A stretch of 64,000 nt of DNA from Leptolyngbya sp. KIOST-1 (GTDB taxonomy: Bacteria > Cyanobacteriota > Cyanobacteriia > Phormidesmidales > Phormidesmidaceae), in NCBI RefSeq assembly GCF_000763385.1, contig NZ_JQFA01000002.1:3224001-3288000 (forward strand), given 5' to 3'. Shown here piece after piece: positions 23,905-32,091 of the stretch (its first letter is position 1; every line of letters starts with the position of its first letter). A program made the translations under genes and the position numbers. The notes under the pieces were generated by a model that ran no database searches, was not told the origin of the DNA, and saw only the letters and a program-made list of their open reading frames with translations.

Positions 23905-25035
23905 CTACCCCCGAATCTGCACCGGCATGACCAGGTAGGTGATTTTGGTTTCGCCCAGGGGCACAAACACCGCCGGGCTGGTGGCCGCATTGCACTGCAT
24001 CTGCACTTCGGTGGTGTCGAATGCCTTGAGGCCGTCCAGCAGGTAGCGCACGTTGAAGGCGATATCGAGGTCGTCGCCAGTCACCTGGGCTGGCAGCTCT
24101 TCGCGACCGCTGCCCACCTCCTGGGCTTCGACCGAGAGCGCGATGGACTGCTCGTCAGAATTGAGAGTGATTTTGATGATGTCGTTTTTCTGGCTGGCCA
24201 GCACCGCAATGCGCTCCAGGCTCGACATCAACAGGCGGCGATCGACGGTGACCTGGCGGGCAAACTGCTTGGGCAGCAGCTGGCGGTAGTTGGGGTACTG
24301 CCCCTCCAGCAGGCGGGTGGTGAGGCGCTGCGCCCCTAGGTCAAACAGCACCTGGGTTTCATCGAGCCGCAGGGCCACCGGCTGGTTGGAGTTGTAGCCC
24401 TGGATCATGCGCTCTAGCTCGCGCAGGGCCTTGGCGGGTACGGTGACATCCATGGCTGGGGTTTCGGTAGCGGCTTCGTCGGTGGTCTGCACCACCGAGA
24501 GGCGGTGGCCATCGGTGGCGGCAAACTCCAGGGCATCGGTCTCCGACATCAGGTGGACGCCTGTCAGTACCTGCTTGGTTTCATCGCCGCTGGTGGCAAA
24601 CAGGGAACCCCGCAGCCCGTTGAGCAGGGCATCGGCACTGAGGGCGATCGCTTCGCCGTCTTCCACCGTAGGCAGCGACGGGTAGTCTTCGGCACTGAGG
24701 CCCCGCACCTCGTAGCGGCCCGAGGATGAGGTCAGAGTGACGGTGGTGCTGTCGCCGTCCGATTCGAGGGTAATATCTTCGTTGGCCAAGCGCGATACGA
24801 TATCGCCCCAGAGCTTAGCAGGCAGCGTCAGGGTGCCCGGTTCGTCAACCTGGGCACTGAAGCGCGTTTCAATGCCCAGCACTTCATCGAAGCCAACCAG
24901 CGTCACTGACTGACTTTCGATGTCGGCCGTTACCAAAATATTGGCCAGCACAGGCCGACTGGGGCGCGACGATACCGCTCGGCTAACCGACGAAAGTTGG
25001 GCACTCAGCTCGCTCTGGGGGCAGATAAACTTCAT
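23905..25035 (-). CDS. dnaN: DNA polymerase III beta sliding clamp
   Basis: 376 residues, full length, three clamp repeats. The N-terminus is MKFICPQSELSAQL and the C-terminus ends VFVPLGETKITYLVMPVQIRG, typical of DnaN. It forms the ring that tethers polymerase to DNA. In Synechococcus elongatus the replication origin lies next to dnaN, and a cluster of DnaA-box-like sequences lies upstream here. No dnaA is in the window. Confidence 0.98.
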   Translation of the reverse strand: MKFICPQSELSAQLSSVSRAVSSRPSRPVLANILVTADIESQSVTLVGFDEVLGIETRFSAQVDEPGTLTLPAKLWGDIVSRLANEDITLESDGDSTTVTLTSSSGRYEVRGLSAEDYPSLPTVEDGEAIALSADALLNGLRGSLFATSGDETKQVLTGVHLMSETDALEFAATDGHRLSVVQTTDEAATETPAMDVTVPAKALRELERMIQGYNSNQPVALRLDETQVLFDLGAQRLTTRLLEGQYPNYRQLLPKQFARQVTVDRRLLMSSLERIAVLASQKNDIIKITLNSDEQSIALSVEAQEVGSGREELPAQVTGDDLDIAFNVRYLLDGLKAFDTTEVQMQCNAATSPAVFVPLGETKITYLVMPVQIRG

Positions 25036-25340
25036 GGCAACGGAGAAAGAAAATGCAGTGGATAGGGAACGTCAACCTGAGATGCCCGCCTGTGGCATCT
25101 ACCTGGCTAATTCCGTACTAGCAGTATCTCACCTTTGCTATAGATCCCGGTTAAACCTACTATGTGTGAATGATTTCAGAAGCCTGGATCCCTTATAAAC
25201 AAAGCTTTTGAGCGGTTTTGAAAACGGCTACTTTTTGATTGGGTGTTCATCCTATCACCCTTTTTTGCCCTGGCTGACCTCTTCTCTGTGGGGCAAGGTC
25301 TGCCTTCCGGAAGAAGAAAAATTTAAAAGATAGTCGTAAT

Positions 25341-25560
25341 AGAAGGGGCTGTGAAAACTGGGGAAAAGAGCTAGATTGCTTGAAGTGGGCAGGCTAGGGA
25401 ACTAACGGGGCTGGGGAAAAGCGGTGGGGAATCGTCCTGAGTTTCCACAACTATGGACATGGGGCAGGCAACATCCACACCCAGGCAGAGGTTATCCCCT
25501 CTAACGACAGAGATTTTCCACGGATTTTTCCCGGTTTTCCCCAGGAAAGTGGAAGAAAAA
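25341..25560. other. Putative chromosomal replication origin (oriC)
   Basis: Upstream of dnaN lies a cluster of nonamers close to the cyanobacterial DnaA box TTTTCCACA. On the minus strand: TTTTCCCCA at 25359-25367 and 25412-25420. On the plus strand: GTTTCCACA 25441-25449, ACATCCACA 25471-25479, TTATCCCCT 25492-25500, TTTTCCACG 25514-25522, TTTTCCCCA 25535-25543. An AT-rich stretch (25190-25340) that could melt lies between the boxes and dnaN. No long ORF is present. The rest of the gap (25561-25816) shows nothing I recognise. Most boxes have one mismatch, so this is a candidate. Confidence 0.6.
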
Positions 25561-25816: not shown

Positions 25817-26344
25817 TTAGGCAACTTCCGCCGCCATAGCGGGGGTCTCAGTCTCGCTCAGGGCAGTGCCCTTCAGCACCAGCACGGCACAGGGGGCACG
25901 GTGCATAACGTGGTTGCTGACGCTGCCCAGCACCAGTTCGGTGAGGCCTGAGCGGCCCCGGTTGCCGATCAAAATCAGGTCGGCTCCCCACTCCTGGGCA
26001 ACTTTGCAGATGGCGGTGGCGGGGCTGCCCACCAGCTGGCGAAACTCAGTGGGTACGCCAGCGGTATTCGCGATCGCGGCATAGCGGCGCAGGTTCTCCA
26101 AACTTTCGGTTTCGTAGCGCACCCAGGCCTGCCGCCAGGCTTCCAAATCCAGCTCGGTGCCCGGTGCCCAGTAAATGCTCTCCAGGGTTGCCGACATGGG
26201 CATTGGGGTGTCGCTATCCTGACTGGAGAGGCAGTGCACCAGCAGCAGGGTGCCCGCGGTGGCCTGGGCCAGCTCCAGGGCATGGTTAAACAGGGCGGCG
26301 CTGCTGGCGCTATTGTCCAGAGCAACTAACAGTTTGCGGTACAT
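25817..26344 (-). CDS. Universal stress protein (UspA) family protein
   Basis: 175 residues, single Usp domain. It starts MYRKLLVALDNS and ends with the nucleotide-binding motif GNRGRSGLTELVLGSVSNHV, matching G-x2-G-x9-G-(S/N), so it probably binds ATP. The Shine-Dalgarno GGGAGGAT precedes the ATG. It lies 78 bp downstream of a tiny membrane-peptide gene on the same strand, probably one transcript. Confidence 0.92.
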   Translation of the reverse strand: MYRKLLVALDNSASSAALFNHALELAQATAGTLLLVHCLSSQDSDTPMPMSATLESIYWAPGTELDLEAWRQAWVRYETESLENLRRYAAIANTAGVPTEFRQLVGSPATAICKVAQEWGADLILIGNRGRSGLTELVLGSVSNHVMHRAPCAVLVLKGTALSETETPAMAAEVA

Positions 26345-29060: not shown

Positions 29061-29741
29061 ATGACAAACTCAGCCGTTTTGATGAACCCGAATGGGGGAG
29101 AAGCGGACTGGCGTAGACCCATGCAGCCAGCCTTAGAGACGAATTTGATGGAGCGAGTCCTCGACTCAGAGAACCTGCACCGAGCGTGGAAGCAAGTGAA
29201 GTCCAATCAAGGTGCCCCCGGCATAGACGGGATGGTGCTGGACGACTTTGCGGCCTACGCCCGACTTCACTGGGGAGAGATTCGCCAAACCTTACGAGAT
29301 GGACGCTACCGCCCTGCTCCGGTGCGACGGGTCGTCATCCCCAAGCCAGGGGGCAAGGGAGAGCGGCTGTTGGGAGTTCCAACAGTCCTAGACCGGGTGA
29401 TCCAGCAAGCCATCTCACAGGTGCTGACGCCACTGTTTGAGCCGGAGTTTTCCGAGTTCAGCTTTGGGTGTCGTCCCAACCGCAGTGCCCACGGCGCGAT
29501 TAAACAGGTGAAGGCATACGTCAAGGAAGGCTATCGGGTGGTGGTGGATTTGGACTTGGAAAAGTTCTTTGACACCGTAAACCACGATGTCCTAATGGCA
29601 AGAGTCGCCCGCAAAGTGCGGGATAAGACCCTGCTAGCCTTGATAGGCCGATACCTGCGAGCCGGGGTCATGGTCGAGGGGTCGTCATCCCCAAGCCAGG
29701 GGGCAAGGGAGAGCGGCTGTTGGGAGTTCCAACAGTCCTAG
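29061..29741 (+). pseudogene. ltrA: Truncated group II intron reverse transcriptase/maturase
   Basis: It starts with a strong Shine-Dalgarno (AGGAGG) and reads through RT0 (NQGAPGIDG), RT1 (VVIPKPGGKGERLLGVP), RT2 (FGCRPNRSAHGAI) and RT3 (VVDLDLEKFFDTVNHD, first catalytic Asp), up to about residue 208. There the sequence jumps back 350 bp, out of frame, and adds about 18 aberrant residues before a stop at 29741. The PQGGP (RT4) and YADD (RT5) motifs, domain X and any endonuclease are absent. Normal length would be above 400 residues. Confidence 0.92.
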
Positions 29742-32091
29742 ACCGGGTGATCCAGCAAGCCATCTCACAGGTGCTGACGCCACTGTTTGAGCCGGAGTTT
29801 TCCGAGTTCAGCTTTGGGTGTCGTCCCAACCGCAGTGCCCACGGCGCGATTAAACAGGTGAAGGCATACGTCAAGGAAGGCTATCGGGTGGTGGTGGATT
29901 TGGACTTGGAAAAGTTCTTTGACACCGTAAACCACGATGTCCTAATGGCAAGAGTCGCCCGCAAAGAGCGGGATAAGACCCTGCTAGCCTTGATAGGCCG
30001 ATACCTGCGAGCCGGGGTCATGGTCGAGGGGTCGTCATCCCCAAGCCAGGGGGCAAGGGAGAGCGGCTGTTGGGAGTTCCAACAGTCCTAGACCGGGTGA
30101 TCCAGCAAGCCATCTCACAGGTGCTGACGCCACTGTTTGAGCCGGAGTTTTCCGAGTTCAGCTTTGGGTGTCGTCCCAACCGCAGTGCCCACGGCGCGAT
30201 TAAACAGGTGAAGGCATACGTCAAGGAAGGCTATCGGGTGGTGGTGGATTTGGACTTGGAAAAGTTCTTTGACACCGTAAACCACGATGTCCTAATGGCA
30301 AGAGTCGCCCGCAAAGAGCGGGATAAGACCCTGCTAGCCTTGATAGGCCGATACCTGCGAGCCGGGGTCATGGTCGAGGGGTCGTCATCCCCAAGCCAGG
30401 GGGCAAGGGAGAGCGGCTGTTGGGAGTTCCAACAGTCCTAGACCGGGTGATCCAGCAAGCCATCTCACAGGTGCTGACGCCACTGTTTGAGCCGGAGTTT
30501 TCCGAGTTCAGCTTTGGGTGTCGTCCCAACCGCAGTGCCCACGGCGCGATTAAACAGGTGAAGGCATACGTCAAGGAAGGCTATCGGGTGGTGGTGGATT
30601 TGGACTTGGAAAAGTTCTTTGACACCGTAAACCACGATGTCCTAATGGCAAGAGTCGCCCGCAAAGAGCGGGATAAGACCCTGCTAGCCTTGATAGGCCG
30701 ATACCTGCGAGCCGGGGTCATGGTCGAGGGGTCGTCATCCCCAAGCCAGGGGGCAAGGGAGAGCGGCTGTTGGGAGTTCCAACAGTCCTAGACCGGGTGA
30801 TCCAGCAAGCCATCTCACAGGTGCTGACGCCACTGTTTGAGCCGGAGTTTTCCGAGTTCAGCTTTGGGTGTCGTCCCAACCGCAGTGCCCACGGCGCGAT
30901 TAAACAGGTGAAGGCATACGTCAAGGAAGGCTATCGGGTGGTGGTGGATTTGGACTTGGAAAAGTTCTTTGACACCGTAAACCACGATGTCCTAATGGCA
31001 AGAGTCGCCCGCAAAGAGCGGGATAAGACCCTGCTAGCCTTGATAGGCCGATACCTGCGAGCCGGGGTCATGGTCGAGGGGTCGTCATCCCCAAGCCAGG
31101 GGGCAAGGGAGAGCGGCTGTTGGGAGTTCCAACAGTCCTAGACCGGGTGATCCAGCAAGCCATCTCACAGGTGCTGACGCCACTGTTTGAGCCGGAGTTT
31201 TCCGAGTTCAGCTTTGGGTGTCGTCCCAACCGCAGTGCCCACGGCGCGATTAAACAGGTGAAGGCATACGTCAAGGAAGGCTATCGGGTGGTGGTGGATT
31301 TGGACTTGGAAAAGTTCTTTGACACCGTAAACCACGATGTCCTAATGGCAAGAGTCGCCCGCAAAGAGCGGGATAAGACCCTGCTAGCCTTGATAGGCCG
31401 ATACCTGCGAGCCGGGGTCATGGTCGAGGGGTCGTCATCCCCAAGCCAGGGGGCAAGGGAGAGCGGCTGTTGGGAGTTCCAACAGTCCTAGACCGGGTGA
31501 TCCAGCAAGCCATCTCACAGGTGCTGACGCCACTGTTTGAGCCGGAGTTTTCCGAGTTCAGCTTTGGGTGTCGTCCCAACCGCAGTGCCCACGGCGCGAT
31601 TAAACAGGTGAAGGCATACGTCAAGGAAGGCTATCGGGTGGTGGTGGATTTGGACTTGGAAAAGTTCTTTGACACCGTAAACCACGATGTCCTAATGGCA
31701 AGAGTCGCCCGCAAAGAGCGGGATAAGACCCTGCTAGCCTTGATAGGCCGATACCTGCGAGCCGGGGTCATGGTCGAGGGGTCGTCATCCCCAAGCCAGG
31801 GGGCAAGGGAGAGCGGCTGTTGGGAGTTCCAACAGTCCTAGACCGGGTGATCCAGCAAGCCATCTCACAGGTGCTGACGCCACTGTTTGAGCCGGAGTTT
31901 TCCGAGTTCAGCTTTGGGTGTCGTCCCAACCGCAGTGCCCACGGCGCGATTAAACAGGTGAAGGCATACGTCAAGGAAGGCTATCGGGTGGTGGTGGATT
32001 TGGACTTGGAAAAGTTCTTTGACACCGTAAACCACGATGTCCTAATGGCAAGAGTCGCCCGCAAAGAGCGGGATAAGACCCTGCTAGCCTT
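29331..32091 (+). repeat. 350-bp tandem array of the RT core, eight copies
   Basis: Copies begin at 29331, 29681, 30031, 30381, 30731, 31081, 31431 and 31781; the last is cut at 32091 after 311 bp. Each unit encodes RT1 to just after RT3. Copies 2-8 appear identical, while copy 1 differs by one base (GCAAAGTGCG against GCAAAGAGCG, Val to Glu). Since 350 is not a multiple of 3, each junction shifts frame, so no polyprotein results. The 123-residue frame in each unit, opened by a TTG, is a by-product. It could be a real amplification or an assembly artefact. Confidence 0.95.

Follow-up and report, generated by a model that had tools for sequence, protein, structure and literature searches.

A probable chromosomal replication origin upstream of dnaN in a Nodosilinea-like cyanobacterium, with a lineage-specific DnaA box and conserved DnaA-box clusters elsewhere in the genome

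The replication origin (oriC) of cyanobacteria is usually adjacent to dnaN and built around the DnaA box TTTTCCACA, and dnaN lies on one side of it in 55 of 68 species (PMC4674748). A known system of strand opening is the 'BUS' unwinding module of Bacillus subtilis, also tested in Synechococcus elongatus, in which tandem boxes are followed by a short GC spacer, 3'-GAT-5'-type triplets and AT-rich DNA. The published criterion asks for three or more 3'-NAN-5' triplets no farther than 16 bp from a DnaA box, and DnaA of S. elongatus is described as separating the strands of its own box-trio scaffold in vitro (PMC8287927). Replication is independent of DnaA in some cyanobacteria, and Synechocystis 6803 and Nostoc 7120 are described as starting from several places (PMC7198777). 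No paper combining 'Nodosilinea' with 'replication origin' was found in the open literature.

The DNA analyzed here (the window) is a 64-kb stretch, G000:C2:3224001-3288000, of a 6.32-Mb genome assembled in 13 contigs. The dnaN gene of the window is 93-98% identical to the closest named dnaN genes, mostly labeled Nodosilinea, Leptolyngbya and Phormidium tenue, and the organism is therefore taken to be a Nodosilinea-like filamentous cyanobacterium. The dnaN product matches all three Pfam clamp domains, and the non-coding stretch upstream of the gene runs to a universal stress protein gene (25817-26344). A preliminary description placed a candidate origin in this stretch. The best explanation for the data is that 25310-25543 is the chromosomal oriC, presumably still working although dnaA has relocated and the box form TTTTCCCCA has become fixed in the core clade, a reading to which we assign a probability of about 0.85. 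The features are listed below; 'core' refers to the 13 closest genomes, and the core, sister and other groups were drawn by dnaN identity and do not represent a tree.

23905..25035, minus strand: dnaN, DNA polymerase III beta clamp, 376 aa (ORF; Pfam PF00712, PF02767, PF02768)
25310..25543, no strand assigned: candidate minimal oriC, comprising boxes B1-B8 and the putative unwinding module (comparative footprint)
25310..25328, minus strand: AT-rich tract TTTTAAATTTTTCTTCTTC (dnaN sense), probably the first DNA to melt
25329..25344, minus strand: DnaA-trio-like triplets TTCTATTACGACTATC, which read CTACTACTACTA in many relatives
25345..25349, minus strand: GC-rich spacer GCCCC between box pair B7/B8 and the trios (13-genome alignment)
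25350..25358, minus strand: DnaA box B8, GTTTTCACA, identical in 10/13 core loci
25359..25367, minus strand: DnaA box B7, TTTTCCCCA, abutting B8, identical in 6/13 core loci
25412..25420, minus strand: DnaA box B5, TTTTCCCCA, the same form in 12/13 core loci
25441..25449, plus strand: DnaA box B4, GTTTCCACA, identical in 13/13 core loci
25492..25500, plus strand: probable DnaA box B3, TTATCCCCT (E. coli box scan)
25514..25522, plus strand: DnaA box B2, TTTTCCACG, 21 bp from B1, variable in the core
25535..25543, plus strand: DnaA box B1, TTTTCCCCA in 13/13 core loci
25817..26344, minus strand: universal stress protein gene (Pfam PF00582), far-side neighbor of the non-coding stretch

The dnaN start is preceded by the boxes at a distance of about 315-510 bp. 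Five sites are within one mismatch of TTTTCCACA: 25359-, 25412- and 25535+, which are the three copies of TTTTCCCCA already reported as a repeated form, 25441+ (GTTTCCACA) and 25514+ (TTTTCCACG). Two further nonamers, 25350- (GTTTTCACA) and 25548- (TCTTCCACT), have two mismatches. The earlier count of seven DnaA-like nonamers thus stands, but they span 25350-25556, about 207 bp, and not the 190 bp given for them. Site 25548- is probably a chance match because the DNA beyond B1 is poorly conserved (mean majority 0.58). Box B3 at 25492 was not in the earlier list and sits within GGGGATAA, which is identical in 10/13 core genomes in the alignment. Five sites with at most one mismatch in 200 bp were never obtained in 2000 dinucleotide shuffles of the intergenic region; the criterion of at most two mismatches is weaker, the observed 6 being reached in 12 of 2000 shuffles. 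In the 1,662,000 bases of the genome that were searched (of 6.32 Mb), the dnaN-side cluster is the densest 200-bp group at one mismatch or fewer, followed by a group of 4 boxes upstream of priA. The locus therefore has the beyond-chance box cluster of a DnaA-dependent bacterial oriC. It shares dnaN adjacency and several boxes around TTTTCCACA with the origin of S. elongatus PCC 7942 and other dnaN-adjacent cyanobacterial origins but differs from them in its main box, TTTTCCCCA, which is one mismatch from the consensus. Exact TTTTCCACA does not occur in the 64-kb window and the variant takes its place, so the site is classed as an oriC outside the exact-consensus group.

Sequences upstream of dnaN were compared in 57 oriented rows: the window, 54 loci hand-picked from 80 named loci with a preference for a long upstream flank and a spread of genera, and loci L007 and L021. 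A single register of box order, strand and spacing fits 54/57 of these sequences, with the qualification that box anchoring tolerates mismatches, so some rows have a poor box at one site or another. B1 and B2 are 21-22 bp apart, B1 and B5 121-125 bp, and B5 and B7 53-55 bp; B4 lies about 30 bp before B5, and B8 abuts B7. The boxes form two facing arrays, with B1-B4 in one direction and B5-B8 in the opposite one. Alignment of the 13 core genomes shows that the boxes are retained while the intervening DNA drifts. Mean majority base values are 1.00 for B1 and B4, 0.99 for B5, 0.97 for B8, 0.91 for B7 and 0.86 for B2, compared to 0.64-0.75 between the boxes; the AT tract (0.94) and trio region (0.92) are also high, and the dnaN leader (0.80) and GC spacer (0.78) are lower. 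One exception to the register is L056, where B1 and B2 are 12 bp apart and the remaining boxes are in place. In Nodosilinea WJT8 (L061) and FACHB-131 (L071) the whole array is present twice about 920 bp apart, at roughly -1430 to -1210 and -475 to -298 from dnaN, and about 276 positions of the two copies align with 77-79% identity. Each copy contains B4, B5, B7, B8 and the triplets; the far copy keeps the register, and B1 has been lost from the copy near dnaN. Only short ORFs of at most 109 aa lie between the two arrays of FACHB-131. The location of the site by dnaN is thus conserved in relatives, as in DnaA-dependent origins.

The suggestion that TTTTCCCCA is a lineage variant was borne out by a box tally of 54 rows (13 core, 7 sister, 34 other; L056, L061 and L071 left out). 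The outermost box B1 is TTTTCCCCA in 13/13 core loci and TTTTCCACA in 39/41 others (6/7 sister-clade and 33/34 other-genus loci), and because the far copy of L061 and L071 also has TTTTCCCCA at B1, adding both brings the core count to 15/15. B5 is TTTTCCCCA in 12/13 core and 5/7 sister loci and TTTTCCACA in 26/34 of the others. Among the 34 other-genus loci, B2 is TTTTCCACA in 31 and B8 is GTTTCCACA or TTTTCCACA in 23. The change is therefore an A-to-C substitution at box position 7 that affects several boxes of the lineage. Judged only from its distance to the consensus, TTTTCCCCA would bind DnaA more weakly. Two other accounts of the variant were rejected. It does not look like a genome-wide over-represented word: 20 copies were observed versus 27 expected under a fifth-order model of the sampled own-genome sequence, which makes its excess (86 occurrences genome-wide versus 36 for the word read backwards) look compositional, and the weight given to TTTTCCCCA is carried only by the clusters and their conservation. 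An altered DnaA specificity was discarded because the DNA-binding motif GGKDHTTV is unchanged in all 44 DnaA frames read, which were chosen by a DHTT-type motif and number one for each of 44 loci. A residue near this motif varies, giving MRRHT in most core genomes and MRQHT in most others; as some other genera have R or H as well, no link of this residue to TTTTCCCCA is claimed.

The dnaN side of the boxes has the layout of a BUS unwinding module, with a tandem box pair, a short GC spacer, DnaA-trio triplets and an AT-rich tract, a feature absent from the preliminary description. That description had noted an AT-rich stretch on the dnaN side, and the most AT-rich 30-mers of the intergenic region do start there, at 25310-25317 (77-80% AT). 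The element next to the boxes (25310-25328) is conserved, as expected of an unwinding element in a DnaA-dependent oriC: in the 22-bp stretch 25308-25329, 68% of columns are invariant in the 13 core genomes and the AT fraction is 0.73. The GC spacer is mostly GCCCC, GGCCC or GGCTC in relatives. The triplets are of the CTA type, the opposite strand being TAG-like, i.e., the 3'-GAT-5' DnaA-trio of B. subtilis. They were counted in 56 rows, with L056 left out though trios are visible there by eye. A stretch of 15 nt with three or more in-frame CTA is present in 47/56 loci and in 0/1028 control placements; two or more occur in 53/56 loci and 31/1028 controls. Only Phormidesmis priestleyi BC1401 and ULC007 and Microcoleus FACHB-1515 fall short of two exact triplets. 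The run in the window is itself imperfect with 2 exact triplets, a number that 31/1028 controls also reach, and under a relaxed CTA-like rule it scores 5/5, a full score attained by 27/56 loci and 1/1028 controls. The triplets start 5 bp from B8, within the published distance, and with 5/5 relaxed triplets exceed the published minimum of three. The putative module resembles the B. subtilis BUS in its tandem boxes, spacer, triplets and AT-rich DNA; it differs in that the triplets of the window are imperfect.

The genome contains one dnaA, a single match at C5:209787 in a 472-residue open frame with GGKDHTTV, so the initiator required by a DnaA-dependent oriC is encoded. Each of the 57 genomes searched, this one included, has one dnaA. 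In other genera of the family (G026-G033), dnaA adjoins dnaN on the same strand in 8/8 genomes: 539-884 bp separate the match to the dnaA C-terminal domain from the dnaN match, which lies downstream. In G031, dnaN is divided between two contigs. The window shares dnaN and the box register with this sister-genus dnaA-oriC-dnaN arrangement but has its dnaA on another contig (C5), and the universal stress protein gene holds the side that dnaA occupies in the sister genera. In the 24 genomes of the genus with both genes placed, a single contig holds dnaA and dnaN in only three, at a distance of at least 1.9 Mb, and in the rest the two genes lie on separate contigs. Many of these assemblies are fragmented, so the firm cases of separation are the three long-contig genomes and the window itself. 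These data indicate that dnaA has relocated away from dnaN in this genus and that the sister genera keep the dnaA-oriC-dnaN order. Together with the conserved register and the trio/AT module, the 8/8 sister-genus genomes support the original proposal of an origin next to dnaN.

GC skew, one of the checks named in the preliminary description, gave a divided result: the genome itself has no significant switch at dnaN, and a relative, G012, has a modest one. The sample comprised 1.66 Mb of the genome and, from G012, 40 stretches of 20 kb each. In the genome itself, the sampled skew is irregular, the switch at dnaN is not significant (p = 0.43 within 300 kb, 0.21 within 600 kb), and the largest local switch on the dnaN contig is near 1.2-1.6 Mb. 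In the 5.46-Mb contig of G012, the 23 stretches left and 17 right of the pre-specified dnaN position differ in skew, with raw means of -0.0154 and +0.0037 (permutation p = 0.0024; third-position residual p = 0.0072). The best raw-skew origin of G012 is at 2.96 Mb, which is the dnaN position; third-position skew favors 3.24-3.44 Mb over it. A free two-breakpoint fit to G012 did not exceed the best of 60 permutations (R2 of 0.200 versus 0.253 for raw and 0.297 versus 0.341 for third-position skew). Skew support for the origin is therefore weak from G012 and nil from the genome itself. Irregular skew is described for many cyanobacteria, and the skew of S. elongatus is described as regular, unlike that sampled here (PMC7198777).

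DnaA-box clusters are also present outside the dnaN region. Two like-facing TTTTCCMCA within 43 bp were found in 54/57 genomes, oriC pairs included, and the reversed-pattern control gave 1 match in 1 genome. Searches with triplet patterns yielded sites X and Y with 0 control matches. These two sites, and the cluster before priA (Z), are as follows.

X, G000:C4:39997-40038 (L262:7997-8038): three TTTTCCCCA spaced 21 and 12 bp, between rsgA and a dehydrogenase-like gene
Y, G000:C4:1866248-1866288 (L263:8248-8288): three to four like-facing boxes beside a 220-aa gene
Z, G000:C2:3221667-3221714 (L032:15667-15714): three exact TTTTCCACA immediately ahead of priA and flanked on the opposite side by a sigma-70-type gene

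Site X was found by pattern in 17 core-clade genomes, and in the 16 loci fetched both flanking genes of the own-genome site were matched in 14 and one of them in 2. The neighbor rsgA was identified by a Pfam match, and the other flanking gene is presumably of the sorbosone-dehydrogenase type. Both genes end toward X in the own genome and no ORF of at least 150 aa lies between them, so X is not an obvious promoter. Site Y was found by pattern in 13 core genomes, and the same 220-aa gene, which has no Pfam match, adjoins it in 13/13. A second neighbor, which we take to be a short-chain-dehydrogenase-like gene, is present in 12/13, and an inverted box accompanies Y in 12/13, the own genome being the exception. 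A relative of the 220-aa gene (51% identity) lies beside a cluster of its own in the sister genome G001. When 15 X and 13 Y loci were aligned, conserved islands appeared at the boxes and at a few other motifs. A second Y copy at C4:2104639-2104679 (L264), near a contig end and with the same flanking genes, was set aside as a probable assembly duplicate; an rRNA operon adjoins the first copy. Site Z lies about 27 kb from oriC and holds its three exact TTTTCCACA and a fourth box at one mismatch in 48 bp. Among the matches listed, a box cluster precedes the priA match by 31-80 bp in G003, G007, G009, G017 and G024 and by 254 bp in G010, and the distance between priA and dnaN is about 21-39 kb in eight core genomes in which both were located on one contig. 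Control of priA by DnaA through Z is possible given this placement.

No exact trio run occurs within 60 bp of X, Y or Z in the own genome, and for this reason the satellites were rejected as second origins. All three would be expected to bind DnaA, and X and Y have the defining property of datA/DARS-like sites, being conserved non-coding DnaA-box clusters outside oriC. The origin and X/Y carry mostly TTTTCCCCA, and Z retains TTTTCCACA. We tentatively suggest, at somewhat less than even odds, that initiation is controlled by a distributed system of oriC, X and Y, with Z before priA, in which the satellites play the part of datA/DARS in cyanobacteria, as DnaA sinks or sites of nucleotide exchange, and two affinity classes of DnaA site exist. 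X and Y are like E. coli datA/DARS and the B. subtilis clusters in being small non-coding DnaA-box groups off oriC that are conserved in place. They are unlike them in having phased like-facing boxes (21 + 11/12 bp), and no homology is claimed. For B. subtilis, a review describes six DnaA-box clusters whose joint removal leads to early initiation and elsewhere states that the clusters have no significant role in initiation (PMC5295017). No cyanobacterial counterparts of such clusters were found among the matches listed for the open literature, a search of titles and the beginnings of abstracts.

The main rival to a working oriC is a lineage that no longer depends on its DnaA origin, as in Synechocystis. 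The dnaN site would then be a relic or conditional origin with ancestral anatomy and decaying boxes, and the chromosome would now start at several places without DnaA. The irregular skew of the genome, the relocation of dnaA and the rarity of exact consensus boxes in the core clade are all in line with this idea, and DnaA independence is reported to have arisen several times in cyanobacteria (PMC7198777). Against this reading, conservation of the boxes, the trio region and the AT tract far exceeds that of the DNA separating them. The presence of dnaA in 57/57 genomes, the DNA-binding motif seen in all 44 DnaA frames read and the conservation of separate DnaA-box sites also speak against it, and the relic reading is considered unlikely.

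Two alternatives give the boxes or the origin a different identity, and both are far less probable than a relic. Gene regulation by DnaA is described in other bacteria (PMC7198777), and the distance of the boxes from the dnaN start would suit a role limited to that of a DnaA-controlled dnaN promoter; the conserved trio/AT-rich module and facing arrays speak against this, the three satellites having no exact trio run beside them, and the reading is very improbable. The origin could instead be Z, between priA and the sigma-factor gene, where the dense exact boxes form the sole place among the 38 exact TTTTCCACA of the genome with several within 100 bp. The strict trio score at Z is 0 within 60 bp on both sides and strands, the flanks are only 37-43% AT, and the sister genera have their origin structure at dnaN, so there is hardly any likelihood that replication starts there.

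The working oriC upstream of dnaN is thus the preferred reading. The case for an origin by anatomy and descent is strong as judged from the conserved layout, and the persistence of position and spacing under a changing consensus leads us to infer that the origin remains functional. In the proposed mechanism, DnaA would bind the two facing arrays, B1-B4 and B5-B8, whose anatomy is observed directly. A DnaA filament starting from the abutting B7/B8 would pass over the GC spacer to reach the trio triplets on one strand, and the AT-rich tract beside the trios would melt, by analogy with the B. subtilis BUS mechanism. Helicase loading and forks in both directions would presumably follow. The genus would have inherited the ancestral order dnaA-oriC-dnaN before dnaA moved away, and the core clade would then have fixed the A-to-C change at position 7 in several boxes. 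DnaA binding at this origin is perhaps weaker or more cooperative as a result.

The origin is of an ordinary kind, with a box form specific to the lineage. More surprising are the satellites and the origin duplication seen in two relatives. The analysis provides a base-resolved candidate origin and a likely unwinding module for a genus of filamentous cyanobacteria within a phylum that has repeatedly lost DnaA dependence. The genus is intermediate in its features, with dnaA relocated, boxes shifted, architecture retained and the origin duplicated in two relatives, and could serve as a test case for how an origin loses strength before its abandonment. Through deletion of the conserved satellites, titration or reactivation of DnaA becomes testable in cyanobacteria.

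Three minor observations concern the surroundings of dnaN. Repeats spaced about 20 bp with TTTTCAACA/TTTTCCACA lie just downstream of dnaN in two sister-clade genomes (L023 and L024). A second full-length dnaN-like gene with 62-66% identity to that of the window is present in three sister-clade genomes (G015:C1:3314190, G002:C188:1546 and G019:C20:22075). Within the window, 29325-32091 consists of a 350-bp unit repeated in tandem about 7.9 times with 99% matching; the unit is part of a reverse-transcriptase gene (RVT_1), and the array is either a recent amplification or an assembly artifact.
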